From the NCBI GenBank assembly GCA_029936315.1, contig JAPYTD010000005.1:1-35171 (forward strand): 35,171 nt of DNA, given 5' to 3'. How positions within the stretch are numbered: the first letter of the stretch is position 1; the number at the start of each line of letters is the position of its first letter. The notes below the pieces were generated by a model. That model ran no database searches. It worked only from the letters and a program-made list of their open reading frames with translations, and was not told the origin of the DNA. The translations under genes and the position numbers were made by a program. This document shows positions 5,032 to 35,057 of this stretch, piece by piece. The DNA comes from Planctomycetota bacterium (lineage in GTDB: Bacteria; Planctomycetota; UBA1135; UBA2386).

Positions 5032-6858
5032 ATGACGACGACTCGCCAGCTGCTTGCCGCGTGCATCGCGTTGCTTCTGAGTTGCGGATTGCGAGCACAA
5101 GAACGCGGCCGCTTCGCTGGCTGGGTTGCCGATGACAACGGCAAACGCGTCATCGGAGCCGACGTCACCCTGATCTCGCGCCCGTTCCCATCCCGACCCG
5201 ACATCGGAATCGCCGACGAACTGCACGTGTGCACGGAAGCCGATGGCATGTTCCGAACGAAACTGCTGCACGGCCGTTCGTACAGCGCATGGGCAGTCTG
5301 GCGCGACGAAGACAACGTGCAGCGCCGCACCGAGATCCTCGAAGGCGCCTTCCCCGGTCCACCGCGCGCCATCAAAGCGGCAGACCTGCAAACCATAAGA
5401 ACCGTTCGCATCAAAGGCGCAGACAAGTGGCGAGCGCGCGCACCACTTCACCTCACTGCCATCACCGCCAGCGAAAACGTCGCCGAGATCCCGGTGCGAC
5501 TCGACGCCAACCTGGTCGCAAAGCTACCGACCCTGCCGGGCGGTCACTGCAGTTTGGAAGTTCGCGGCAAGGACGGCCTGATACTGGGCATGGCGGCCTC
5601 ACTTGCACTCGCGCAGAAGGACAAGCCAGAACTCACGATCGAGCTATCCGAACCACGCGAACTGCGCATTGTGATCGTCGACAAGCAGGGCAAACCCGTT
5701 TCCGGAGCGACCATTCGCCACGCATTTGGTTACCACAAGCGTGATCTCACGACCGTTATTGGAAAGACCGACGAAGGCGGCGTGCTGCAAGCCACCCTGC
5801 CTTCGGTCAATCCTATGTATGTCAAACCGGACAAGGACCTTTGCTCGTTCCAGATTAGCGCGCCCGGAAGACAACGCATGTTCTCGTGGACGCATCTCGA
5901 CAAGGTCGGAGACGTTCTAACCCTGACCATGCCAGCAGGCAGCGACCTGATCGGCCGAGTGCTCGCCAAAAATGGCTCCCCCGCCACTGGCATCACGTTA
6001 CTGCCCGATTGCTACGCGATGGGCGCCGACAACGCATTGAGCGGCAATGGCGTTCCACCACGGGTACTGACACTGGCCCAGGACGGGGGCTTCCGGTTCT
6101 CAAGCCTTCACCCTCAGCATGACTTTCGCCTGCTTGCGCTGATCGAGCCAAAGGCGGCCATCGCGCAGGGCATGCGATTGCGAAACGACATCGCCGTCGC
6201 CCCGGTTGTGTGGCTGGCGGTTGGTGCACCACCGTTCCAAACGCCGCACAAACTCGACGGCATCCGCCTCGATCGAATTGCCATTGCGCAAATTCGCGTG
6301 ACCACGGACACCGGCACACCCGTGCCCGGTGCGCGACTGACGGTGACAACCCAGGACCTCTACAACTCGCCGATCCATTACGTCTGCGACCGCGTTGGCC
6401 GCCTGCAGTTCCCGCTACCGAACGGTACGATCCGCATTGGCGCGTGGTTTCCCGGCGGCGGCGTTGCAACGATGTTGGTGAGCAGCCCGCTAGCGGACGG
6501 CGCCCCGGAAATTGATCCGCTGGTCATCAAACTGTCGGCGACGCAAACCGTTCGCGGCGTCATCGTCGACGCGGCCGGCAAGCCGGTGCAGGGCGTCAAG
6601 GTCTACCAAGGGGGTCGCGGCAAGACCGACGATCGCCAGATCCGCGAACTGTCGTTCTTGGCGCGAGCCACGAGCAACAAAACCGGGCCGGATGGATCGT
6701 TCTCGCTGACGCTACCGCTCGATGACGTGCCGTTTTCGGTGCAGTGCTTCGGCAAGGTGAACGGCGAGACTCTTGTCTCAAAGCAGATCGTGATCCTGCC
6801 AGACGATCCCGACAATGGCCGCCTGCGCATCGCGGTGGCTCCGTTCAAGAAAAAGTAG
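5032..6858 (+). CDS. Secreted protein with several carboxypeptidase-regulatory-like (Ig-fold) domains
   Basis: A 608-residue protein. ATG 5032 was chosen because a signal peptide follows at once (hydrophobic core LLAACIALLLSCGL, ending RAQE). The rest is beta-rich with repeated carboxypeptidase-D-regulatory-like starts: GRFAGWVADDNGKRVIGADV near 24, LRIVIVDKQGKPVSGATI near 210, and VRGVIVDAAGKPVQGVKV near 505. These are seven-stranded modules often found in planctomycete cell-surface proteins. No catalytic domain, cell-wall anchor or membrane span after the signal was seen. It probably follows the transporter in transcription but has no clear functional tie to it, and no Shine-Dalgarno sequence is visible. 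The function is unknown; a structural or binding role outside the cytoplasm is most likely. Confidence 0.75.
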   Translation: MTTTRQLLAACIALLLSCGLRAQERGRFAGWVADDNGKRVIGADVTLISRPFPSRPDIGIADELHVCTEADGMFRTKLLHGRSYSAWAVWRDEDNVQRRTEILEGAFPGPPRAIKAADLQTIRTVRIKGADKWRARAPLHLTAITASENVAEIPVRLDANLVAKLPTLPGGHCSLEVRGKDGLILGMAASLALAQKDKPELTIELSEPRELRIVIVDKQGKPVSGATIRHAFGYHKRDLTTVIGKTDEGGVLQATLPSVNPMYVKPDKDLCSFQISAPGRQRMFSWTHLDKVGDVLTLTMPAGSDLIGRVLAKNGSPATGITLLPDCYAMGADNALSGNGVPPRVLTLAQDGGFRFSSLHPQHDFRLLALIEPKAAIAQGMRLRNDIAVAPVVWLAVGAPPFQTPHKLDGIRLDRIAIAQIRVTTDTGTPVPGARLTVTTQDLYNSPIHYVCDRVGRLQFPLPNGTIRIGAWFPGGGVATMLVSSPLADGAPEIDPLVIKLSATQTVRGVIVDAAGKPVQGVKVYQGGRGKTDDRQIRELSFLARATSNKTGPDGSFSLTLPLDDVPFSVQCFGKVNGETLVSKQIVILPDDPDNGRLRIAVAPFKKK

Positions 6859-6909
6859 TAGCCACGACCTCGGCGAGGGTGTGGCCGCGAAGGAGATTAT
6901 TCTTGTCCC

Positions 6910-6920
6910 GGCACCGTACT
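6910..6920 (+). repeat. Copy A of the short dispersed repeat (core GGCACCGTACT)
   Basis: The core lies within TTGTCCCGGCACCGTACT, followed by CTTGGGAT. It aligns with copy B about 85 bases downstream over roughly 35 bases at an estimated three quarters identity by eye. It lies in the 159-base gap between two secreted-protein genes. Confidence 0.55.
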
Positions 6921-6994
6921 GGCACTCTTGGGATCACGTTGCTCAGGGGGTGTTGCGAAATCGGGAATCTCGGAGATGAGTGAGTTTTTGCCCC

Positions 6995-7005
6995 GGCACC
7001 GTACT
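6995..7005 (+). repeat. Copy B of the short dispersed repeat (core GGCACCGTACT)
   Basis: The core lies within TTGCCCCGGCACCGTACT, followed by AACATCCTCGGG and immediately by the ATG of the next gene at 7018. It would therefore occupy the leader of that transcript or its promoter. Its 3' flank AAC.TC.T is shared with copy C. Confidence 0.55.
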
Positions 7006-7017
7006 AACATCCTCGGG

Positions 7018-7788
7018 ATGATGGATCGTTTTCCGCTGGGCTTGTTGGCGCTGGCTGCACTGGTTGTTGGTGGCTCGGTTGCTGCGCAAGAGATTGCGTT
7101 GCCGTTTGCTAGTGGCAAGATCACGGTGGCGGCGGATTGGACGGTTCTGGGTGCCAAAGAGCTGGCCGAGGAGGCGCGCGATAGCGATCCGGTTGCCGGC
7201 ACGGCGAAGGTGCAACTGCTCGGGCTGGTTGCTGATCTGCGCGCCAAGAACCGCACGGACCAACATCTCATTCTGCACCGCAGCGGCCTGAACCCAGAGC
7301 AGTTGCAGATGATCAATTGCTACTCGATGGATGAGGTACCCAGCAGCGAAGAACTGGTCGCGGAAGAAGCTGCGAGCAAGATGAGCCAGGTGCTGGCAAC
7401 GGAGATCGGCGGGCAAGACCTGGCGATCACGTGCACCGGGCATGAAGTCAGTGAGATGTTCGCGATCAAGTCGCTGTTGATGCACTTCGCCATGACAGAA
7501 CCTGCCTCGGCATGGCGCATGGACGTTCTCGTCGTGCCTAGCGGCGACCGGTTGCAGTATTTTGAGAGCCAGTACCTGGCGGATGACGCGCAGGCGATTG
7601 CGAACATCGACGCGGTGCTGCGCACCTATGACGGCGCCAAAGAACCCGACACCCGCGTCAGCAACTTGCTGATTGGTGGTCTGGCGGGCGCGGTTGCTGG
7701 GATCCTTACCGCACTGTTTCGGCGACGCCGACACATGCGGATCCAAGGGCACCTGACACAGACTGGCAGCGAAGCTGCACCGAGCTAA
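7018..7788 (+). CDS. Hypothetical exported protein with C-terminal membrane anchor
   Basis: A 256-residue protein with two adjacent ATGs at 7018 and 7021, either usable. The signal peptide has the core LGLLALAALVVGGSVAAQE. The middle is a mixed alpha/beta domain without recognised motifs. Near the end, a glycine/alanine-rich helix (LLIGGLAGAVAGILTALF) followed by RRRRHMR looks like a membrane anchor with a cytoplasmic basic tail. The mature domain would therefore face the periplasm. I do not recognise the family. It sits between a carboxypeptidase-regulatory-like secreted protein and a small gene pair, and shares an upstream dispersed repeat. Confidence 0.6.
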   Translation: MMDRFPLGLLALAALVVGGSVAAQEIALPFASGKITVAADWTVLGAKELAEEARDSDPVAGTAKVQLLGLVADLRAKNRTDQHLILHRSGLNPEQLQMINCYSMDEVPSSEELVAEEAASKMSQVLATEIGGQDLAITCTGHEVSEMFAIKSLLMHFAMTEPASAWRMDVLVVPSGDRLQYFESQYLADDAQAIANIDAVLRTYDGAKEPDTRVSNLLIGGLAGAVAGILTALFRRRRHMRIQGHLTQTGSEAAPS

Positions 7789-7845
7789 CGTTGCTGGTTC
7801 GCCGGGGTCAACCGGCGCATCCAAGAGAGCAACAAGAGAGCCTAC

Positions 7846-8055
7846 GTGACTGCCACAATCGAAACGCGCATCGCACGAGAGTTAGAAGTCCGCGAAGACC
7901 AGGTCCAAGAGACCGTCGGCCTGCTCGAAGTCACTCGCGAGCGCGCCAACAAGATGGCGGCATTGCCAACCCATGCCGTGCAGCTAACCAAGCGCGCGAC
8001 CTACCAGGGCATTGCGCAGAATCACGACGATCATCCCCGCGCACTCGAATCGTGA
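7846..8055 (+). CDS. Small protein resembling the extreme N-terminus of Tex, probable remnant
   Basis: A 69-codon frame from GTG 7846. Its first 27 residues (TRIARELEVREDQVQETVGLL) closely follow the start of Tex/YhgF RNA-binding transcription accessory proteins, which are normally about 700-800 residues. The usual continuation with the FIARYRKE motif is missing. The next stretch, LTKRATYQGIA, vaguely recalls the later KRRT segment of Tex, as expected after an internal deletion. Its stop codon overlaps the GTG start of the next gene (GTGA), so it may now serve as a translated leader. Whether it makes a functional small protein or is a degraded gene is open. Confidence 0.45.
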   Translation: MTATIETRIARELEVREDQVQETVGLLEVTRERANKMAALPTHAVQLTKRATYQGIAQNHDDHPRALES

Positions 8056-8684
8056 CCCCGACTCGCGTAGTTCACGAAGCCGACGCAATCGCGTGGCTAC
8101 AAGAAAACGAACTCGCGAGCGATGCTGCGATCGTCACGTCGCTGCCGAATGTCGATGAGTTCCGGCACCAAAACTTCGAGCGCTGGCGCAACTGGTTCTG
8201 TGACGCAGTCGCGCTGATCTTGCAGAAGACGCCGACCAACAGTGCCGCCGTGTTTTTCCAGACGGACATCCAGCAGGACGGCATCTGGATCGACAAGTCA
8301 TTCCTCGTACAGCAGGCGGCAGCGCTTACTGGCACGCCGCTGATCTGGCACAAGATCGCGCTGCGAGCGCCAGTTGGAACCACCACCAACTCACGGCCCG
8401 GCTACGCGCATCTACTGTGTTTGGCACCGACGCTGCGCCTCACCGAACACAACGCCACGCCAGACATCCTGCCGCAACTCGGCAAGATGGCATGGCCGCG
8501 GGCCATGGGGCTCGACATTGCAACAACCGCGGTGCGCTGGCTGCGCGACTACGCTGGTGCGAGGACTATCGTGGCGCCGTTCTGCGGCACCGGAACCGCC
8601 CTGCTAGCGGCCAATCAGCTCGACCTTGATGCGATAGGCATCGAGCGCAGTACAAGCCGAGCCGCAAAGGCTCGCGAGCTGTAG
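8052..8684 (+). CDS. SAM-dependent methyltransferase-fold protein, permuted amino-methyltransferase type
   Basis: A 210-residue protein starting at GTG 8052, overlapping the preceding stop codon by four bases (GTGA), so translation is probably coupled. Motif order matches permuted beta-class DNA amino-methyltransferases. A catalytic-loop-like VTSLPN lies near residue 33, where these enzymes have (T)SPPY or DPPY. The SAM-binding motif APFCGTGTALLAANQLDLDA is near residue 175, close to the C-terminus. The middle has FFQTDIQQDGIWIDKS and LIWHKIALRAP, probably the core strands. No target-recognition domain is evident. The LP in place of PP/PY makes the substrate (DNA, RNA or other) uncertain. It is convergent with the ABC operon. 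Confidence 0.6.
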   Translation: MTPTRVVHEADAIAWLQENELASDAAIVTSLPNVDEFRHQNFERWRNWFCDAVALILQKTPTNSAAVFFQTDIQQDGIWIDKSFLVQQAAALTGTPLIWHKIALRAPVGTTTNSRPGYAHLLCLAPTLRLTEHNATPDILPQLGKMAWPRAMGLDIATTAVRWLRDYAGARTIVAPFCGTGTALLAANQLDLDAIGIERSTSRAAKAREL

Positions 8685-8695
8685 TTCGAACACGA

Positions 8696-8712
8696 CCGGT
8701 GGCAAGTGCCGG
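8696..8712. terminator. Weak hairpin between convergent genes
   Basis: CCGGT at 8696-8700 and GCCGG at 8708-8712 can form a 5-pair stem (one wobble pair) around a 7-base loop. It lies between the stops of the methyltransferase-like gene (plus) and the second permease (minus). No T-tract is present, so this is only a candidate two-way terminator. Confidence 0.3.
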
Positions 8713-8713
8713 G

Positions 8714-9964
8714 CTATTCGTAGCGCAGGGCTTCGACCGGATCGAGGCTCGCGGCTTTCCATGCCGGCCACAATCCGAAGAACAAGCCAACGCCACCGGA
8801 CCCCGCGAAGGCAAATGCGCGCGCCCACCATGGCGTCGCCGATGACAGGTCGGGCAACAGTAGCGCCGTCAGACTAAGCAGGCCTTCGGCGACCAGCAAA
8901 CCAAGCAAACCACCGATCGTGCAAAGCACGACAGCTTCGACCAGGAACTGACCGAGGATGTCACGCCGCCTGGCTCCGACCGCCTTGCGCAATCCGATCT
9001 CGCGGGTTCGTTCGCGAACCGACACCAACATGATGTTCATGACACCTACGCCACCGACCATGAACCCGACGGTCGACAACAAGAACATCACTGCCATGAC
9101 GGCAAACACGATGTCGTCAAAGGACTTGATCAGGCTGTCCGCCGTCGCCATCTCAAAGTTGTTCTCCTCGTTCCACCGCACGCGACGCCGGCGCCGTAGA
9201 ACCTGCGTGATCTCGCCCTTCGCCTCCTCAATCAAGCCAGACTTGCAGCGCACTGCGAGGAACACGTCATCGGCCGTCGGGTAGAAGCGCTGCACGGTTT
9301 CGTAGGGTGCCAGGAATGCTTTGTCATCCTCGTTCTCGCCGCCAAACGGCCCTTCCTTGCGCTTCTCGAGCGTGCCAATGACCTTGTAGACGCGACCGTC
9401 GATGAGCACATCCTTACCGACGGCGCCGCCGTTCGGAAACAGCGCTTCGTCCACCGAACTGCCGATCACCACCACCGCCGTGTTGTGACGGTTCTCCTGG
9501 CTGGTGAAGAAGCGGCCTTCCTTCAGCACTCGGTTGGCCACCTCGAGATCCTCGGGATAGACCCCCTTCAAATCGGGCGTGTCGATCTCCTGGTCGCGGA
9601 AGCTCGCACGGGTAAGGAAGGTTGGTGCGTCCAGAACCGGGGTCAGGATCTCTACGGAGGGACACAGGTCGCGCACGGCCCACGCGTCGTCGACGACGAT
9701 CGGTTTGCGCAGCCGCATCTCGCGCGACAGCCGACCGAGGTTCACGAACGGCCGATGGTGCACATAGATGTTGTTGGTACCGAACTGCTCAACCTGGTCG
9801 ACAACGGATTGCCGAAAGCCATTGAGGATTGACGCCACCATCACCACCAGCAGCACGCCGATGAAGATGCCCAACACGGTCAAGCATGACCGGAAGCGGT
9901 TGCTCATCAGGGTCTCGAAGGCGAGCCGCGTGTTTTCCCAGGCTGATTGTAGCGCGCGTGGCAT
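8714..9964 (-). CDS. MacB/FtsX-type ABC transporter permease (second of a tandem pair)
   Basis: A 416-residue inner-membrane protein starting at ATG 9964, two bases after the stop of its paralogue. It has the MacB-type layout: one N-terminal helix (CLTVLGIFIGVLLVVMVASI), a large periplasmic domain of about 220 residues, and three C-terminal helices. The family signature MLVSVRERTREIGLRKAVGA lies after the second helix. Such permeases transmit ATPase motion across the membrane to a periplasmic adaptor rather than forming a classic channel. With the adjoining permease, ATPase and adaptor it forms a MacAB-like export or lipoprotein-handling machine. Substrate unknown. Confidence 0.88.
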   Translation of the reverse strand: MPRALQSAWENTRLAFETLMSNRFRSCLTVLGIFIGVLLVVMVASILNGFRQSVVDQVEQFGTNNIYVHHRPFVNLGRLSREMRLRKPIVVDDAWAVRDLCPSVEILTPVLDAPTFLTRASFRDQEIDTPDLKGVYPEDLEVANRVLKEGRFFTSQENRHNTAVVVIGSSVDEALFPNGGAVGKDVLIDGRVYKVIGTLEKRKEGPFGGENEDDKAFLAPYETVQRFYPTADDVFLAVRCKSGLIEEAKGEITQVLRRRRRVRWNEENNFEMATADSLIKSFDDIVFAVMAVMFLLSTVGFMVGGVGVMNIMLVSVRERTREIGLRKAVGARRRDILGQFLVEAVVLCTIGGLLGLLVAEGLLSLTALLLPDLSSATPWWARAFAFAGSGGVGLFFGLWPAWKAASLDPVEALRYE

Positions 9965-23522: not shown

Positions 23523-24284
23523 ATGGCAGCAATTCGTAAGAGTGGCGGCGTGGTACCGTTCTTCTGGCAGGGCAAGATTGTTGATCCACGCAACGACGAG
23601 TTTGCCGAACACCTGTCCTTGCAGCGCTTCCGCACCATTGAGAACGCGGCCAGCGAAGAGGTCTCGATTGGCTGGGTAACCCCAGCCGATCCGACCGGCG
23701 ACAACTTCAGCCCCGAAGAGCTCGACGGCGGCATCGGCACCTGGCTGCGCTTTCGCATCGACAAGAAGTCGATGCCGATGAAGTGGCTGCAGATCCATCG
23801 CGACGCAGCCGAGAAGGCGCGCGGCAAGAAGCTGTCCGCCAAAGAACGGCGCGAACTGAAAGATGATCTGATGGATCAGCTGCTACCGCGCGTGTTGCCT
23901 ACCATCACGCTCGTCGACGCGTTGCTGTTTGAGGAGCGCAAGACTGTGCTGCTGTTTGCGACCAGCAAGTCAGCGAAGGAAGCGTTCGGCAAGCTGTTCT
24001 TCGAGACCTTCTCGCTGCAACTCGAGCCGGCCGATCCACTGCAGAGTGGTCTGCGCTCGGACTTGAGTGAGGAGGACAAGCGCACCCTCGAACGCGTCAA
24101 CCCAATCCGCTGGCCAAACACCGCGCTGGAGCAGGGCCAGTGGCGACCGGTTCCGGTTGCAGCTGCGGCACCGCCAAACACAGAAAGACCAGTCGAGCAG
24201 AACCCAGGCGAAGCACAATCGCCGCAACCACAAGCGTCGCCTGAGACGGCCACTGCCACAGAGTCGACGGAGCACGAAGCATGA
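23523..24284 (+). CDS. RdgC-like recombination-associated protein (N-terminal type)
   Basis: A 253-residue protein. The early SIGWVTP, then a segment rich in basic helices (ARGKKLSAKERRELKDDLMDQ) and LLPRVLPTITLVDALL with FATSKSAKEAFGKLF, follow the order of E. coli RdgC (GWVPP, LKKTEKDSLKDEV, LLPRAFSRF, ASAKKAEDTL). RdgC is a ring-shaped DNA-binding protein that modulates RecA-dependent recombination. Here the fold's C-terminal portion appears reduced: after about 195 residues it turns into a Pro/Ala/Glu-rich tail (about 210-253). Its stop overlaps the next start by ATGA, so the next protein probably works with it. Lower sequence identity leaves the DNA role inferred. Confidence 0.65.
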   Translation: MAAIRKSGGVVPFFWQGKIVDPRNDEFAEHLSLQRFRTIENAASEEVSIGWVTPADPTGDNFSPEELDGGIGTWLRFRIDKKSMPMKWLQIHRDAAEKARGKKLSAKERRELKDDLMDQLLPRVLPTITLVDALLFEERKTVLLFATSKSAKEAFGKLFFETFSLQLEPADPLQSGLRSDLSEEDKRTLERVNPIRWPNTALEQGQWRPVPVAAAAPPNTERPVEQNPGEAQSPQPQASPETATATESTEHEA

Positions 24285-27142: not shown

Positions 27143-28489
27143 ATGATCTATTTGTCCCGTCTGTCCTTCTTGCTGGTCGCGCTCGCGGTAGCCACCTCGA
27201 TTTGCGCCCAGCAGTCCTTCGTTGACAGCATGAACAAGAGGTTTGCGGGCCGCTCACCTGCCGCTGGAGACATGCTGCCAGATGCTGAAGGCTGCCACGG
27301 CGACGGCTCGCCGTTCGCGTTGAAAGACACGCGCGGCAAGCTGACCGTGCTAGTCACCGGCTGCCTCACTTGAGTACCGTTCTTACGCAACGTCCCCGGT
27401 CTGGAGACGGTCTACCGCGACTTCCGAAGCAAAGGCGTCAACTTCGTCATCATCTACAAGTCGATCGTGCACCCCGGCACGAACGGCATCGTCGAGGCGT
27501 TCACGAAGCAAGAACGGCTCTTGCAGCTGGCAATGGCAAAGAAGCGACTCGGCACCACCGTGCCGATCGTCAGTGACTCGCTCGATGGCGCGATCGTCAG
27601 GGCACTGAAGTCCGCGCCCAACGCCGAGTTTGTCATCGACAAAGACGGCAAGATGATCCACCGCAAATTCTGGCATGATCCTGCCGCGCTGCGCACGTTC
27701 CTCGAAGAACGTTTCGGCAAAGTTGACAAGCCAACCCGCGTCGAAGACCTCGACATGAAGTTGGTCTTTCCAAAGCAAGGCGCGCCGCGCGGCCTCGTCA
27801 AGCCGCCCAAACTTCCAGGCCGTTTTTCCGCCCTGAAGACAACGCCTGAGTTGCCGAGCGACCAGGAAGCCAAAGAGGGCGCGACGCCGTTCTTCGCCAA
27901 GCTGCGCGCCGAGGGCACGCGCGGCGGCAACGGCAAGCTCTACCTCGGCTTCTACCTTGACCCCGTGTACCAGGTGCACTGGAACAACCCAGCCGGTGGC
28001 TTGTCGTTCTCGATCGAAGACCCCGAGGATCCGGATTTCGAACCGATCGTCGGGCAGACCCCAAAATACGAGCACGAGACAGACGTCGACCCACGCGAGT
28101 TCGTGATCGACTTCGATGCGGAGCGCGGGCAGAAGTTCCGTGTGACCGTGCGCTACACGATCTGCGACGACAACGGCAAGTTCTGCCTGCCCGTGGAGCA
28201 GCACTACTCCCTGGAGATGACCATGGACCGTGACGCTGGTCAGCGAGCCGGTGAGTGGATGCTGCGACTGGTCGGTGACCCGTTGTCGTACGACAGCAAC
28301 GAGGATGGCTTTGCGTCGCGGGACGAACTTCCTAAGGAGCGTGCCCAGATCATCTTGCTGCACTACGACCGCAACCACGATGACCGGATCGACAAGCGGG
28401 AGGCGGCGCTGTTCTACGACATGATCCGCATGAAGCCGAGTGAGCCCGGAGCTCGTCGCACGCCGCCTCCACCCCGACGCGGCCGATAG
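27143..28489 (+). CDS. Putative selenoprotein: deiodinase/thioredoxin-fold domain fused to DsbD-N-like domain and EF-hands
   Basis: Reading TGA 27371 as selenocysteine gives one continuous 448-residue frame from ATG 27143. A signal peptide (LSFLLVALAVATSICAQ) comes first. Residues 40-192 follow the bacterial deiodinase-like thioredoxin fold: LTVLVTGCLT-U-VPFLRNVPG with Cys 74 and Sec 77 (C-x-x-U), FVIIYKSIVHPGTNG with the family HP (110-111), then FVIDKDGKMIH. Residues about 263-363 resemble the N-terminal domain of DsbD (LGFYLDPVYQVHWNNPAGGL), with a Cys pair in CDDNGKFCLP (341, 348). Two EF-hand loops follow: DSNEDGFASRDE (384-395) and DRNHDDRIDKRE (409-420). It is probably a periplasmic thiol/selenol redox enzyme. 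Without readthrough it would be a 76-residue dead product. A nonsense mutation or sequencing error cannot be excluded. Confidence 0.75.
27371..27409 (+). promoter_or_regulatory. Candidate bacterial SECIS element with its UGA codon
   Basis: After TGA 27371-27373, the bases at 27391-27397 (CGTCCCC) and 27403-27409 (GGAGACG) form a stem of six pairs with one C-A mismatch around the loop GGTCT (27398-27402). The first loop base is G, 25 bases after the UGA. Both the spacing and the leading G fit the loose rules known for bacterial SECIS hairpins read by SelB. A competing long-range pairing (ACCGT 27376-27380 with ACGGT 27407-27411) is also possible. Confidence 0.55.
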
Positions 28490-28514: not shown

Positions 28515-29054
28515 TTGACCACTACGGTCCGAATCGCCACAGTCCCAATCGTGCAGCGCATTACCAACACGCACCAGCTGACCAACGTTCCGCGGCGACT
28601 GCTGCTGTGGCTGTGTGGCCTGCTGGCTATCGCGCTGACGATGTCGCACCACTGGGTCATCTGCACGCATGATGACGGGGATGCGCACCTTGAGATCAAC
28701 CACGCGCAAGGCGATCCTCATCAGCATGTCGCATGCGACTGTCATCGCGAAGATGACGGCGAGCGCGATTGTGACGGTGAGCACCCAGAGACCCCGCACG
28801 ACAGTGAGACCCCGCACGACAGTGGGAACCCCCACGACACCTGCAGCCACATCGACCTGCTGGTAGAAGTCGGTCCCGAGCAAGAGCCCGACTCGCTTGA
28901 GCTGCCGCTATTGCTCGCCTTTGAGTTGCCGAGCAACTCCAGGGTCACACCCTTGGGCACCGCGACCAAGCACTCACTGCCGCCACCGGCAACTGGACCC
29001 CCTCGACCTCGAAGATTCCTCGCGGTTCATGCAACTCAGGTCCTGCTGATCTAA
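28515..29054 (+). CDS. Small His/Asp/Cys-rich membrane-anchored protein of the metal-efflux operon
   Basis: Up to 179 residues from TTG 28515; GTG 28551 is an alternative start in the same frame. One transmembrane helix (RRLLLWLCGLLAIALTMSHH) is followed by a segment packed with possible metal ligands: HDDGDAHLEINHAQGD, PHQHVACDCHRED and tandem PHDS/ETPHDS units. The C-terminal third is Pro-rich and unremarkable. No family is recognised, but small metal-binding proteins of this kind often precede CusCBA/CzcCBA genes. It starts 25 bases after the selenoprotein gene and may be co-transcribed with it. A role as a periplasmic metal sponge or sensor is inference. Confidence 0.55.
   Translation: MTTTVRIATVPIVQRITNTHQLTNVPRRLLLWLCGLLAIALTMSHHWVICTHDDGDAHLEINHAQGDPHQHVACDCHREDDGERDCDGEHPETPHDSETPHDSGNPHDTCSHIDLLVEVGPEQEPDSLELPLLLAFELPSNSRVTPLGTATKHSLPPPATGPPRPRRFLAVHATQVLLI
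28788..28838 (+). repeat. Tandem 18-base repeat encoding ETPHDS units
   Basis: Two identical 18-base units (28788-28805, 28806-28823) and a diverged third partial unit (28824-28838) encode ETPHDS-ETPHDS-GNPHD in the His-rich protein. It is a local expansion that adds potential metal ligands. Confidence 0.85.
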
Positions 29055-29133
29055 GTCGACTGGTTCGTCGTTGCGCCTCCGTGCGCTCCGCGCGGCGCCT
29101 ATGGGCGTTGCTGTAGCGAACACCAGTCGACTT
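29053..29133. repeat. 12-base perfect inverted repeat framing the efflux gene leader
   Basis: AAGTCGACTGGT at 29053-29064 is perfectly inverted as ACCAGTCGACTT at 29122-29133, with 57 bases between. The left arm overlaps the stop codon of the His-rich gene and the right arm ends four bases before the ATG of the TolC-like gene. In RNA it would fold the whole intergenic region and could hide the start codon's surroundings. Alternatives are an operator pair or the ends of a tiny non-autonomous insertion. Confidence 0.6.
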
Positions 29134-29137
29134 GTTC

Positions 29138-30454
29138 ATGTACTTCCGAATCAGCTACCTGTCTTTGGCAATCGTCAGCCTTGTGGGCTGCCACTCGTAC
29201 ACGCCAATGCCCGTCGATCTCGACGAGCATCTCGCCGCGTTCCAGCACCGCACGCCGTCAACTTCTCCCGAAGGTGGCCTGCCGCGCGCCGATGCCCGAG
29301 AGATGGCGAAGATGTTCCATCCGGATGCACGCCTCGCCAGGCGGCGCGCCGGGGTGGCCACGGCCCAGCGCGATCACGCCGGCGCCTGGGCCGACCCGCA
29401 ACTGCAAGGCAATCTGCAGCGCATCCTGGAGAGCGTGCCCTACCAATGGATCACGAGCGCGCAGCTTGGCTTCACCTTGCCGATCAACGGCCGCCTGCAG
29501 AAGCAGCGTGATCTCGCCGACCGACGCCGCGATGTCGCACTCGTGGCAGCTTGGGCTATCGAGCAACGCGTGGCCAACGACCTGGACGCGGCGTGGGCTG
29601 CCTGGACCGCGGCGAGCAAGCGCTCGGTCGTATTCGCCGCGACCTGCGACAGCCTTGAACAACTCGAACTGGTTGCCAACGCGCTGGTCGATGCCGGCAG
29701 CTTGAGCAAACCCGGTGCTCGGGTATTCACCCTCGAACGCAGCCAAAAGCAGGCAGCACAGGCGATGGCGCTGGCGACCGTGCAAGCCACCCGGCTCGAA
29801 GTACTGCGCCGTATCGGGTTGCACCCGGGTGCCAAGCTGGACCTGCAGGCGGACCTTGAGGTGAAGCCGTTCGTTGCCGAGGCATCGGCCAGGCGAACCG
29901 CCATACGCAACAGCCCACGGTTGTTGCTCGAGCAGAACGAGTACGCAGCAGCCGAAGCCAACCTGTTGCTACAAGTCCGCAAGCAATGGCCGGACCTGCA
30001 ACTTGCCCCCGGCTGGCAGGAAGAAGAAGGCCAGCCTCGCGCCTCACTCGGCTTCAACCTCAACCTGCCGATCTTCACCGGCAACGATCCGGCGATTGCC
30101 AAGGCGAATGCCGATCGAGAACTTGCAGCGGCTGGCCTGCGCGTAGCGCTCGAGCAACTGACTCAGGAACTCGCGATCGCCGAGGTGCGTCGCACCGCGG
30201 CGAATGATCAAGCCGACCGCTTTGCCGAACTACTGGTGATCGCAAAACAGCAGGTCGAAGACGGGCGGCAGCTCGCTGCAGCCGGACAACTCGACCCCAT
30301 GCTGATCCTCGATGCCTTGCTGCGAGTGCACAACGTGCAAATAACGGCGATCGGTGCCGACGAAGCAGCTGCGCTTGCCGCAATCACGATCAACACCTTG
30401 CTGACAGACCCACAATCCCAAGCACCCGCAATGAGTGCTGGAGAAGAACGATGA
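29138..30454 (+). CDS. TolC/CusC-type outer-membrane efflux lipoprotein
   Basis: A 438-residue protein from ATG 29138 (an in-frame TTG lies two codons earlier). The lipoprotein signal ends in LVGC. The rest is long helical and strand pairs of the outer-membrane efflux family, in two halves: one near 55-210 (AGAWADPQLQGNLQRILES, DLADRRRDVALVAAWAIEQRV) and one near 240-430 (RTAIRNSPRLLLEQNEYAAAEANLL, WPDLQLAPGW, LGFNLNLPIF). It should form the trimeric exit duct for the pump encoded downstream. Its stop overlaps the adaptor start by four bases (ATGA). Confidence 0.85.
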   Translation: MYFRISYLSLAIVSLVGCHSYTPMPVDLDEHLAAFQHRTPSTSPEGGLPRADAREMAKMFHPDARLARRRAGVATAQRDHAGAWADPQLQGNLQRILESVPYQWITSAQLGFTLPINGRLQKQRDLADRRRDVALVAAWAIEQRVANDLDAAWAAWTAASKRSVVFAATCDSLEQLELVANALVDAGSLSKPGARVFTLERSQKQAAQAMALATVQATRLEVLRRIGLHPGAKLDLQADLEVKPFVAEASARRTAIRNSPRLLLEQNEYAAAEANLLLQVRKQWPDLQLAPGWQEEEGQPRASLGFNLNLPIFTGNDPAIAKANADRELAAAGLRVALEQLTQELAIAEVRRTAANDQADRFAELLVIAKQQVEDGRQLAAAGQLDPMLILDALLRVHNVQITAIGADEAAALAAITINTLLTDPQSQAPAMSAGEER

Positions 30455-31875
30455 ACCGCGACAACGAACTGCGATCCCTCTCGGCCCTCTTGTGGGGTGT
30501 GCTGGCGTGCATCTTCCTGTCATCCTGCGGCTCGCCCGACCAGAGCAACACCGGTGGCAGTGCCGCACAGGATCCCCCACCAAGCAATCGCATCGACATT
30601 CCGCAAGCGGTGCGGCAAAACCTCGGCATTGAGTTCATCAAGGTCGAGCGCCGCCAGATCACTTCGACCCTACGCCTGCCTGGGCGAATCGAGTTGCTGC
30701 CATCAGCCACGCAGCACTATCGTGCGCCGCTCGGGGGCCGCATATCGCTCAACGTCGAGCCCCTGCAGAAGGTCAAGCCCGGCGATCTGCTCTACACGAT
30801 CGACTCGCACGAGTGGCGCGCACTGCAACGAGAGCTCGGCAGCGTCACGAATAAGCTGACCGTCACCGAAGCGCGGCTCGATGGGATGAGTCCGCTGGCT
30901 CGCGCGTGCGCAGCGCACGAGTCCAGCCTTCGCGATGCGCTCAAGGTCTCGGCAGACTACGTCGAGAGCCTCGAACGCGCCCAGGCAAGCGTTGGAGGCC
31001 AAGGCGCCAAACTCGCCACGGCCCGCGTCGACCAGTCGCGGTTGTCGGCGCAGATCGCCGAGGCATCCGAGAAGCACACCGAAACGCAGACGCGCATCAC
31101 GGAATTGACCGCCATGCTCGCGTCGCAACGCGAACAGATCGACTTGTTGTTGTCGGGAGCAGCCGCGACCATCGGCATCGACAAGGCAAGACTTGCAGCT
31201 ACGGAATCGGGTAAAGCAGGATGGCGCACGCTGGCAACCATCGAGGTGCGCGCAGCACAAACTGGCGTGGTCAACGAGATCGCCGTCGCCAACGGCAATC
31301 TTGTTGAGGCCTATGGCGCAGTGGTAACAACGGTCGAACCGGGCCGCGTGCGCTGCCATGCGCGCGTGCTGCAGAGCGACATCGATTCGCTCCGCGACGG
31401 CCTGCAGGCCACGATCGTGCCGGTCGGCGCAGTCAATCCGCAACACCGCGTCGCCGCCACCGTACAGATCGGCCCAACCGGCAATCCAAACACGCGCACA
31501 TTCGACGTGTTCGTAACGCCAACCGACAAAGATCTGCGTTTCGTGCGGCCCGGCCTCGCGGTGTTCGTCGAGATCATCACGAAGACCTCGGGGGCCAGCG
31601 AGCTGGCGATCCCAAAGTCGTGCGTGCTACCCGACGGGCTGGATCGCGTGTTCTTCCGCCGTGACCCGAACAACCAGGATCTGGTCATTCGCATCGTCGG
31701 TGACTTCGGCCAGGACGACGGCAAGTGGGTTGAGGTCATGAGCGGCATCACGGACGGCGACGAGATCGTTGCCGCGGGCGCGTTCGAACTCGTGCTCGCC
31801 AGCTCGAACCAAGTTCCAAAGGGCGGCCACTTCCACGCGGATGGCACCTGGCACGCTGGCAAGGACAACGAATAG
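30451..31875 (+). CDS. RND efflux periplasmic adaptor (CusB/CzcB-like), lipoprotein
   Basis: A 474-residue adaptor with lipobox LSSC near 27. The N-terminal barrel region has ITSTLRLPGRIELLPSAT. A lipoyl half-domain reads VEPLQKVKPGDLLYTI. A long coiled coil (about 130-260) with Gln/Glu/Ala-rich heptads follows, then IEVRAAQTGVVNEIAVANGN. The beta-barrel and membrane-proximal domains (FDVFVTPTDKDLRFVRPGLAVFVEI) complete it. It ends with the motif HFHADGTWH, a likely metal site typical of CusB-type tails. It connects the inner-membrane pump with the outer-membrane channel. Both neighbours overlap it by one to four bases. Confidence 0.87.
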   Translation: MNRDNELRSLSALLWGVLACIFLSSCGSPDQSNTGGSAAQDPPPSNRIDIPQAVRQNLGIEFIKVERRQITSTLRLPGRIELLPSATQHYRAPLGGRISLNVEPLQKVKPGDLLYTIDSHEWRALQRELGSVTNKLTVTEARLDGMSPLARACAAHESSLRDALKVSADYVESLERAQASVGGQGAKLATARVDQSRLSAQIAEASEKHTETQTRITELTAMLASQREQIDLLLSGAAATIGIDKARLAATESGKAGWRTLATIEVRAAQTGVVNEIAVANGNLVEAYGAVVTTVEPGRVRCHARVLQSDIDSLRDGLQATIVPVGAVNPQHRVAATVQIGPTGNPNTRTFDVFVTPTDKDLRFVRPGLAVFVEIITKTSGASELAIPKSCVLPDGLDRVFFRRDPNNQDLVIRIVGDFGQDDGKWVEVMSGITDGDEIVAAGAFELVLASSNQVPKGGHFHADGTWHAGKDNE

Positions 31876-34800
31876 TGTTTCGCAGCCTGATTCGATTCTC
31901 GCTAGCGCGACCATTCGTGGTCGTTGCCATGTCGGTACTGATCATCGCCACCGGCGCTTACCTGGTGCCGCACATGCCTGTCGATGTGTTCCCCGAGCTC
32001 AATGCACCGACGGTGGTCGTGCTGACCGAGAGCCCCGGCCTCGCCGCGGACGAAGTCGAGCAGAACGTCACCCTACCATTGGAAACTTCGGTTCGCGGCC
32101 TGCCAGGGGTGCGACGCGTGCGCAGTGCGAGCGCCATCGGTTTGTCCTTGGTGTGGGTCGAGTTCGAATGGGATCAGGACATCTACCGAGCGCGCACGCT
32201 CGTCAACGAGAAGCTAACAGCTATCCGCGAATTGCTGCCTCCGGGCGTGCACTCGGAGATCACCCCGATCACGTCGATCACGGGCGAGATCATGTTGCTG
32301 TCGGTCGCGTCACCGGACGAGACCAACACACCAATGGAACTGCGCAGCTACGCGGAATTCGACCTGCGCAACCAGTTGATGGCCGTGCCTGGTGTCGCGC
32401 AGGTCGTACCGATCGGCGGCGAACTCGCCGAGTACCAGGTGCACGTTCGCCAAGACGATTTGCAACTCTACGGCCTGTCGTTGGCAGACGTCGTCGCCGC
32501 CGCCAAGCGTTCGCACACAACGGCAGGTGCTGGCTACCTCACCAACGTCAATGGTTTCGAGATCCCCATTCGCCAAAGCGGGCGCGTGCGTTCGGTCGAG
32601 GACATTCGCGGCACGGTCCTGAAGCAAGTCGATGGTCATACAGTGACGATCGGCCACGTCGCCGAGGTGCAGTTAGGCGCAACTCCGCCGCGCGGCACCG
32701 CTGCCGAAGGTGGCGGCAGTGCCGTCGTGTTGGCGGTGCAGAAGTCGCCAGGCACCAACACGCTGGCGCTGACGGACGCGATTGATGCCCAGCTGCTCGA
32801 GGCCAAGAAGACCATGCCTGCTGGCATGACGATCAACCCACACGTCATGCGGCAGGCGGACTTCATCCGCATCTCGATCAAGAACCTGCTATCCGTACTA
32901 CTCGATGCTGCGATCTTCGTGGCCATCATCCTGATCTTGTTCCTGCTCGATGTGCGCACGACACTGATCACGCTGACAGCATTGCCGCTCAGCCTCGCGG
33001 TCGCATTCGTCGTCTTGTGGGCTGCAGGCCTGTCAATCAACGTGATGACACTCGGCGGTCTCGCGGTTGCGATCGGCGAACTGGTTGACGACGCGATCAT
33101 CGACGTCGAGAACGTCTTCCGCAGGTTGCGTGAGAACGCCGGCCTGCCGGTTGACGAACGTCGGCCAGTGGTGTCGGTCGTGTTTGACGCCAGCAACGAA
33201 ATCCGCAGCTCGGTGGTCTTCGCGACCGCCATCATCGTGATGGTGTTCGTGCCGCTGCTGTTCCTACAAGGACTCGAAGGCCGCTTCTTCCGGCCGTTAG
33301 GCATCGCCTACATCGTCGCAACGCTGGCCTCCCTGGTTACGGCGCTGACCGTGACGCCAGTCATGTGTCGCTACCTTCTGGGCAATGTCAAAGCTGGCGG
33401 AGCCCATCAAGACGGCTTCCTGGTGCGCTGGATCAAGGCGCGCTACCGGCCGACTCTGCAGTGGGCTATGCGCCGCGGCCGCTCGTTGCTCGCGGTATCC
33501 GCACTGCTGACGGTTTTATCGCTCAGTCTCGCCTCGACGTTCGGATCCAGCTTCCTACCAACCTTCAATGAAGGCACGTTCACCGTGTTCTTGATGGCGC
33601 CACCGGGAACGTCGCTCGAAGAGAGCAACCGCATGGCGATCGGCGTCGAGAAACAGATGACGATGTTGCCCGGGGTGCGTGCGGTCGTTCGGCGCACGGG
33701 ACGTGCCGAGCGCGATGAACACGCCGAACCAGTCAGCAGTTCGGAGATCGAAGTATCTGTGCTGCCTGGTCACGATCGCTCCGAAGTGCGGCGCGCCATC
33801 GATGGGGTCCTGGCGAGCGTGCCAGGCATCAGCACAAGCGTTGGGCAACCGATTGAGCACCGCCTGTCACACGTTCTGTCGGGCACGCCGGCCGCGATCG
33901 CCGTCATCGCCAAGGGCGACGACCTCGCAGTACTGCGCAATTTGGCCAAACGCCTCGAGAGCGCCTTGGGCGACGTGCCCGGCACGCGCGACGTCAACGC
34001 CAACCGCGAGGTGATGATCACGTCGTTGCCGATCCGCTACGACCAGCAAGCACTCGCGGCAGCAGGATTGTCGCCAGCCGACGCCGCCGAGCAAGTGCAG
34101 ACGGCACTCGCTGGCGCGCACATCACCGACGTACTCGATGGCCAAAAGAGGCTCGCACTAACCGTTCGCTTGCACCCCGACGAACGCCGGGATCTCAAGA
34201 GCGTCGGACGCCTGATCCTGCGCGGCATGAACGGTGCCATGGTGCGACTGCGCGACGTCGCCGACATCTCGCTGGAGCGATCCTCCAACCTGATCGCGCG
34301 TGAAGACGGTCGCCGCAAAGCCGTGATCTCGTGCAACGTTGCCGATGGCTACAACCTCGGCCAAGTCGCCGAAGCCGTGCGGATCGTAGCCGAACCCATT
34401 GTCACCGAAGCCGGTTGCTCTCTTTCGGTCGGCGGCCAGTTCGAAGCCCAGCAGTCGGCTAGCCGCACCATTCTGGTGATGGGTGCATTCGTCATCATGA
34501 TCATGCTGATGCTCGTGCACGCCGCCATCGGATCGCTGCGCGCATCGATCCTGGTGATGGTCAACTTGCCGCTGTCGCTGATCGGCGGCATCCTGGCGAT
34601 CTACGTGACCGAAGGGCCAGGCGTGATTACCAACACCCTCGCACTGACTGGCATCAGCGGCGAACGCTACGAGGCTCCGGTCATCTCGATCGCGAGCATG
34701 GTCGGGTTCATCACCCTATTCGGCATCGCGGTGCGCAACGGCATCCTGCTGGTGCGCCACTACTTCGACCTGCTGGCCGAAGGACGTTCGCTCGAAGAAA

Positions 34801-35057
34801 CCGTAATAGACGGGTCGCTCGGGCGACTGGTGCCCATCCTGATGACGGCGCTAACCGCCGCGCTTGGCTTACTCCCGATCGTGTTCGCCGCTGGCCAACC
34901 CGGCAGCGAGATCCTGGCGCCACTGTCGGTCGTCGTGCTTGGCGGCCTGCTGTCGTCAACATTCCTGAATCTGGTGGTTGTTCCGGCCGGGTTCTATCTA
35001 CTCTTCCGTAACCGGCCTCTGCCGACACCTTCCGAACCCCTCGAAGCACTCGAATGA
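31875..35057 (+). CDS. CusA/CzcA-family heavy-metal RND efflux pump
   Basis: A 1060-residue inner-membrane pump starting at GTG 31875, one base inside the adaptor's stop (TAGTG). It has the RND plan: N-terminal helix (PFVVVAMSVLIIATGAYLVP), porter domain with MPVDVFPELNAPTVVVLTE, and helix block with the proton-relay segment GELVDDAIIDVENVFRRL near 400. A second porter region and C-terminal helices with GFITLFGIAVRNGILLVRHY close the protein. The AIIDVEN form is the variant of the heavy-metal (HME) branch. Substrate, monovalent copper/silver or divalent zinc/cobalt/nickel, is not decidable by eye; the operon's His-rich protein supports a metal. Confidence 0.9.
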   Translation: MFRSLIRFSLARPFVVVAMSVLIIATGAYLVPHMPVDVFPELNAPTVVVLTESPGLAADEVEQNVTLPLETSVRGLPGVRRVRSASAIGLSLVWVEFEWDQDIYRARTLVNEKLTAIRELLPPGVHSEITPITSITGEIMLLSVASPDETNTPMELRSYAEFDLRNQLMAVPGVAQVVPIGGELAEYQVHVRQDDLQLYGLSLADVVAAAKRSHTTAGAGYLTNVNGFEIPIRQSGRVRSVEDIRGTVLKQVDGHTVTIGHVAEVQLGATPPRGTAAEGGGSAVVLAVQKSPGTNTLALTDAIDAQLLEAKKTMPAGMTINPHVMRQADFIRISIKNLLSVLLDAAIFVAIILILFLLDVRTTLITLTALPLSLAVAFVVLWAAGLSINVMTLGGLAVAIGELVDDAIIDVENVFRRLRENAGLPVDERRPVVSVVFDASNEIRSSVVFATAIIVMVFVPLLFLQGLEGRFFRPLGIAYIVATLASLVTALTVTPVMCRYLLGNVKAGGAHQDGFLVRWIKARYRPTLQWAMRRGRSLLAVSALLTVLSLSLASTFGSSFLPTFNEGTFTVFLMAPPGTSLEESNRMAIGVEKQMTMLPGVRAVVRRTGRAERDEHAEPVSSSEIEVSVLPGHDRSEVRRAIDGVLASVPGISTSVGQPIEHRLSHVLSGTPAAIAVIAKGDDLAVLRNLAKRLESALGDVPGTRDVNANREVMITSLPIRYDQQALAAAGLSPADAAEQVQTALAGAHITDVLDGQKRLALTVRLHPDERRDLKSVGRLILRGMNGAMVRLRDVADISLERSSNLIAREDGRRKAVISCNVADGYNLGQVAEAVRIVAEPIVTEAGCSLSVGGQFEAQQSASRTILVMGAFVIMIMLMLVHAAIGSLRASILVMVNLPLSLIGGILAIYVTEGPGVITNTLALTGISGERYEAPVISIASMVGFITLFGIAVRNGILLVRHYFDLLAEGRSLEETVIDGSLGRLVPILMTALTAALGLLPIVFAAGQPGSEILAPLSVVVLGGLLSSTFLNLVVVPAGFYLLFRNRPLPTPSEPLEALE

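Follow-up and report, generated by a model that had tools for sequence, protein, structure and literature searches.

The 35,171-nucleotide stretch analysed here (the window; contig JAPYTD010000005.1 of the Planctomycetota assembly GCA_029936315.1) carries on its forward strand a gene of 448 codons whose single in-frame UGA is, judging from comparison with homologous genes, very likely decoded as selenocysteine (Sec). Translation of the frame 27143–28489 bore out what a first-pass annotation of this DNA had claimed, namely that one TGA (27371–27373), at residue 77 within GCLT-stop-VPF, is the only interruption. The open frame reaches upstream to 27053, and behind the ATG at 27143 comes a leader that is hydrophobic by eye. 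Among open reading frames (ORFs) of at least 100 amino acids, the only one lying inside the gene and on its frame is 27467–28489, with a GTG start and a 340-residue product; this is the start that gene callers had been expected to choose, and the window's own 340-residue product (P0001) was present among the matches of our protein search. When compared with the congener L020, the ratio of non-synonymous to synonymous substitution rates (dN/dS) was 0.19 for residues 1–76 and 0.28 for residues 78–160. By this measure the segment 5′ of the TGA evolves as coding sequence, and the frame is otherwise intact and, as had been said of it, well kept.

We then turn to the residue-77 column, where homologues alternate between Sec and Cys. 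The protein search gave 205 relatives, of which 120 are listed, P0001 included; counts of listed relatives refer to the other 119. Residue 77 is spanned by 33 of these, with Cys in 32 and Ala in one; 73 start at residues 78–90, directly behind the UGA, 12 start later, and P0096 falls into neither the spanning nor the late-start class. Because these 73 begin after the UGA, and were thus deposited headless, the family appears to be a selenoprotein group hidden in plain sight in the databases. In a protein alignment (A1), all 27 relatives that span residue 77 have Cys, and four more rows begin behind it. At the DNA level, we read codon 77 in 35 homologous genes, comprising those of the window, L020, L023, L024 and L033 and, among the 37 matches from the order of genome G491, the 30 that had a locus (seven had none). 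The codon was TGA in 31 and a Cys codon (TGC or TGT) in four, in keeping with the earlier expectation of Cys or Sec here among homologues; TGA is also the codon in the nearest relative, which is 73% identical at the amino-acid level. The Cys three residues before Sec, part of the CxxU motif noted at first, is likewise present in every listed protein that spans the site. Across genomes, the gene was found in 4 of 154 from the window's order (E 1e-20; the window's own included), with TGA in all four, and in 4 of 392 from a phylum-wide draw (1e-40; again with the window's), with TGA in three. In G491's order it was found in 34 of 170 genomes, 28 showing TGA and six not; Cys was read in four of these six, and G572 and G642 had no locus. 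The database entries of the relatives P0004, P0018 and P0020 name a Planctomycetota bacterium, and that of P0086 names Planctellipticum variicoloris. The protein with Ala at the Sec position (P0105) is a DUF3179 fusion.

The window's genome (G000, a 4.98-Mb assembly, 92% complete) holds all four components of the Sec machinery for which a check had been proposed. A tRNA-Sec (selC) with anticodon TCA scored 69.7 bits (cut-off 47), and the profile matches for selA (465.6 bits), selB (343 bits) and selD (356 bits) were each above their own cut-off; selA adjoins selD on contig C26, and selB lies on C116. In one set of 20 genomes, tRNA-Sec was above cut-off in 19, the exception being G491, which has the Cys form. 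As 13 of these 20 had no match to the selenoprotein gene, the machinery serves other proteins too. Among the gene-bearing genomes of G491's order, tRNA-Sec exceeded the cut-off in 25 of 34 (22 of 28 with the TGA form, 3 of 6 without TGA), and selB did so in 15 of 18 tested genomes (12 of 12 and 3 of 6, respectively). These 12 include all six TGA-form genomes in which tRNA-Sec gave no match at E 1e-8 (G518, G521, G534, G612, G646 and G647); either missing contigs or a divergent tRNA-Sec would account for the absent matches. In G491, G513 and G572 (the last 84% complete), neither selB nor tRNA-Sec was over the cut-off, and the gene shows no TGA. In G412, selB (9660–11621 of L076), selA (8198–9730), tRNA-Sec (8087–8182) and the TGA-form gene (L033, near 6729–7883) stand in a row on one strand. 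The selD gene of G000 (L018, contig C26:27594–28532), beside selA, has an in-frame TGA of its own, in SSG-U-AAK.

Behind the UGA lies a hairpin resembling a selenocysteine insertion sequence (SECIS), which begins 20 nucleotides past the T of TGA and has six or seven of seven pairs in all 31 TGA genes. In the window, the seven-position stem has one mismatch. Across the 31 genes, the full seven pairs are present in 11, a C–A mismatch sits mid-stem in 17, and the outermost pair is open in L033, L068 and L069; this outermost pair varies (C–G in 21, G–C in 5, A–U in 1, U–A in 1, unpaired in 3), and the loop is five nucleotides long, reading GGUCU, AGUUU or AGGUU. The four Cys genes retain 2, 4, 4 and 3 of the seven stem pairs. 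Paired cells amounted to 90.8% across the TGA genes versus 35.5–60.8% for slid partners, and in a shuffle test three of five measures exceeded all 500 shuffles, the other two being reached in 441 and 159. The thermodynamic stability of the hairpin by itself was not above that of shuffled sequences. Synonymous codons at positions 78–90 were better kept than their flanks in all 10 chosen Sec pairs (p < 0.05 in three), and four Cys pairs split two each way. The GGUCU loop is reminiscent of what we take to be the loop of the E. coli fdhF SECIS. The bacterial elements have been described as hairpins that directly follow the UGA and have a G within a small apical loop (PMC1088965), and the window's hairpin, with its loop GGUCU, has this form. 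Judging from its conservation, the hairpin probably directs Sec insertion at the UGA. Natural Sec and Cys forms both occur in the family; those Cys genes that were read have lost the hairpin, and one genome has the family gene next to its sel genes.

The N-terminal part of the protein passed the cut-off of the Redoxin family PF08534 (37.4 versus 26.6 bits). It reached 41.5 of the 250 bits set for the deiodinase family NF038285, none of the window's four NCBIfam matches attained a cut-off, and PF00837 gave no report at E 1e-3, though 18 of the 32 alignment members match that family; no selenoprotein name appears among the six families listed for A1. Structure comparison (VIA-align) returned mouse Dio2 and Dio3 as best matches, with the deiodinase catalytic-core fold; the family's Cys/U column and its HP align with the Sec and HP of Dio3. 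The earlier placing of the TGA at the deiodinase redox position is hence sustained by the Dio3 Sec column. The label "deiodinase-like" stands as regards the fold and fails as regards the motif (CxxU), the deiodinase cut-offs and the extra C-terminal domains.

Further downstream, the all-beta domain scored 20.6 bits against PF11412 (DsbD-N), below the cut-off of 25, which was passed by the relatives P0003, P0004, P0008 and P0065 and not by P0002, P0014 and P0091. A structure search returned no clear match for this domain, and nDsbD was not among the matches listed. In the model, C341 and C348 sit at facing ends of adjacent strands (331–342 and 348–361); in nDsbD, a hairpin has C103 on one strand and C109 on the other (PMC7347389), and the predicted site likewise places a Cys pair across a beta-hairpin. 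Leader aside, Cys or Sec occurs only at positions 51, 74, 77, 341 and 348, and position 51 is Phe in L020. This comparison leaves C74/U77 and C341/C348 as the two conserved redox pairs. The structure model also has a helix at residues 2–35, and EF-hand_5 matched 24 of the 32 alignment members at E 1e-3, the window's protein not among them. The relative P0091 has a CusF-like tail, just under cut-off. All features are collected in Table 1.

Table 1 Features of the predicted selenoprotein gene (window coordinates)
Feature	Position	Strand	Basis or remark
Selenoprotein gene, 448 codons including one TGA, TAG stop	27143..28489	+	translation
Likely signal peptide or leader anchor, residues 1–22, MIYLSRLSFLLVALAVATSICA-QQ	27143..27208	+	by eye
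Redoxin/deiodinase-like thioredoxin-fold domain, residues 36–193	27248..27721	+	
Cys74, Sec partner in CxxU motif	27362..27364	+	C in 33/33 listed spanning proteins
In-frame TGA, predicted selenocysteine 77	27371..27373	+	TGA/Cys alternation in homologues
SECIS-like hairpin, stem 27391–27397 with 27403–27409, loop GGUCU 27398–27402	27391..27409	+	
His110-Pro111	27470..27475	+	invariant in A1; aligned with Dio3 HP
All-beta domain, residues 200–368, likely DsbD-N-like	27740..28246	+	PF11412; model pLDDT (predicted local distance difference test) 93.2
Cys341, second pair	28163..28165	+	C in 118/119 listed relatives
Cys348, second pair	28184..28186	+	C in 117/119 listed relatives
EF-hand loop 1, DSNEDGFASRDE, residues 384–395	28292..28327	+	
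EF-hand loop 2, DRNHDDRIDKRE, residues 409–420	28367..28402	+	D409, E420 invariant in A1

Considering the whole, we lean slightly towards a likely exported CxxU redox protein, its in-frame UGA very likely read as Sec, with a two-pair selenothiol relay. Sec decoding, export and redox chemistry are what we infer from sequence and model, and the relay is suggested by the two conserved redox pairs. In such a relay, U77, at the attacking position of deiodinases and peroxiredoxins in the thioredoxin fold, would react with an extracytoplasmic substrate, and C74 would resolve it as a Se–S bond; C74 is a possible seat of the resolving partner because peroxiredoxin (Prx) selenoproteins carry TxxU, whose T is the third residue before Sec (PMC2398784, as far as available). 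C341/C348 of the fused DsbD-N-like domain would then exchange with the Se–S bond, giving a two-step selenothiol relay in one chain. By analogy with PMC7347389, this domain resembles the last DsbD carrier and would be a natural exchange partner, and the EF-hands would bind Ca2+ and either steady or switch the arrangement. More tentatively, as something possible rather than probable, the protein may represent a new selenoprotein architecture, seen to date in Planctomycetota, an extracytoplasmic one-chain relay in which a CxxU is re-reduced by a DsbD-type immunoglobulin-like (Ig) Cys pair under EF-hand calcium control; as part of this reading, Sec would occupy the site from which deiodinases and peroxiredoxins attack, with Cys at the thioredoxin position. 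The Dio2 of animals is possibly a single-turnover enzyme (PMC11592359), and the relay, if true, would show how a deiodinase-type selenol becomes a recycling enzyme.

The strongest alternative, which we rate at not much under an even chance, is a selenoprotein whose CxxU domain acts alone as a deiodinase-like or peroxiredoxin-like reductase, with C341/C348 serving a binding domain only as a structural disulfide. Closest folds in mouse Dio2/Dio3, the bacterial deiodinase-like selenoproteins already known (PMC1088965) and a beta domain without a clear structural match all speak for it, whereas the near-invariance of C341 and C348 and the DsbD-N signature above cut-off in four relatives speak against it. 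Other accounts concern the UGA itself and fare far worse against Sec. The frame alone cannot separate Sec from a reassignment of UGA to Trp or from near-cognate readthrough, yet Trp occurs in none of the 33 listed spanning proteins and the genome holds tRNA-Sec, selA, selB and selD, leaving such decoding very improbable. Equally hard to credit is a pair of genes, a 76-residue peptide followed by a separate protein starting behind the TGA: it would fit the 73 listed relatives that begin at residues 78–90, but the post-TGA product would lack both active-site residues and the opening strands of its thioredoxin fold, and 33 listed proteins run continuously through residue 77. A nonsense mutation or sequencing error in a decaying gene has nothing to commend it beyond the TGA itself and can practically be dismissed, since 31 of the 35 genes share the TGA at this codon, with the frame intact and dN/dS as given above, so that by comparison of homologues this TGA is neither chance nor sequencing error.

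Among known systems, the thiol-disulfide reductases ResA, TlpA and SdbA are, to our knowledge, without Sec, a second Cys-pair domain or EF-hands. Bacterial deiodinase-like selenoproteins (PF00837) have been known since 2005 from the Sargasso Sea set (PMC1088965) and have the deiodinase-type thioredoxin fold in common with the window's protein, which differs in its CxxU and its extra DsbD-N-like domain. The motif of that family is given as UxxC in two reviews (PMC13188914, PMC9312934), and the 2008 Global Ocean Sampling table, in the portion available, gives no motif for it (PMC2398784). DsbD also pairs a thioredoxin-like domain (cDsbD) with a Cys-pair beta domain (the nDsbD Ig domain with C103/C109; PMC7347389); here, by eye and from the model, the thioredoxin-like part is instead N-terminal and carries the predicted Sec, and the 448 residues include no eight-helix membrane part. 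A 2021 marine-metagenome survey described a deiodinase-like/EF-hand fusion and, separately, a Prx-like (U/CxxC)/DsbC PF11412 fusion (PMC9402790). Each holds part of the present architecture, which, going by the descriptions alone, is set apart as one CxxU chain with redoxin, DsbD-N-like and EF-hand parts. This combination did not turn up in our literature search, the partial fusions of PMC9402790 being nearest, and the accessible text of a 2026 review (PMC13188914) has no entry with CxxU, DsbD-N-like and EF-hand together. Parts of the architecture were thus already reported in 2021, and what is new, within the literature searched and the portions of it available, is their one-chain combination with CxxU. 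Selenoproteins have been reported in planctomycetes (PMC4807772); Planctomycetota, the phylum of this group, is not named in the available text of the two reviews (PMC13188914, PMC9312934).

G000 encodes a second likely selenoprotein (L026; contig C8, near 40671–41021, minus strand). Its EF-hand-like stretches precede a deiodinase-like domain whose TGA stands in GSYT-TGA-PPF, and a hairpin of 6 bp, with GGUC as its loop, follows this TGA; a 119-residue piece of the protein had no NCBIfam match. L026 shares 27% identity with the window's protein over 139 residues, with weaker matches between the EF-hand-like stretches. By eye it differs in having no Cys at the third position before Sec, an N-terminal EF-hand-like part and no DsbD-N-like part.

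Downstream of the gene, on the same strand (28515–35057), a short ORF that matches nothing in NCBIfam precedes genes for an outer membrane factor, an adaptor and a CusA/CzcA-like RND pump (the last at 686 bits versus a cut-off of 701). The ORF layout in the congener L020 resembles this region by eye. Elsewhere in the window, 23523–24284 encodes an RdgC-like protein of 253 amino acids (46 bits, cut-off 25) that covers profile positions 18–164 of 298.
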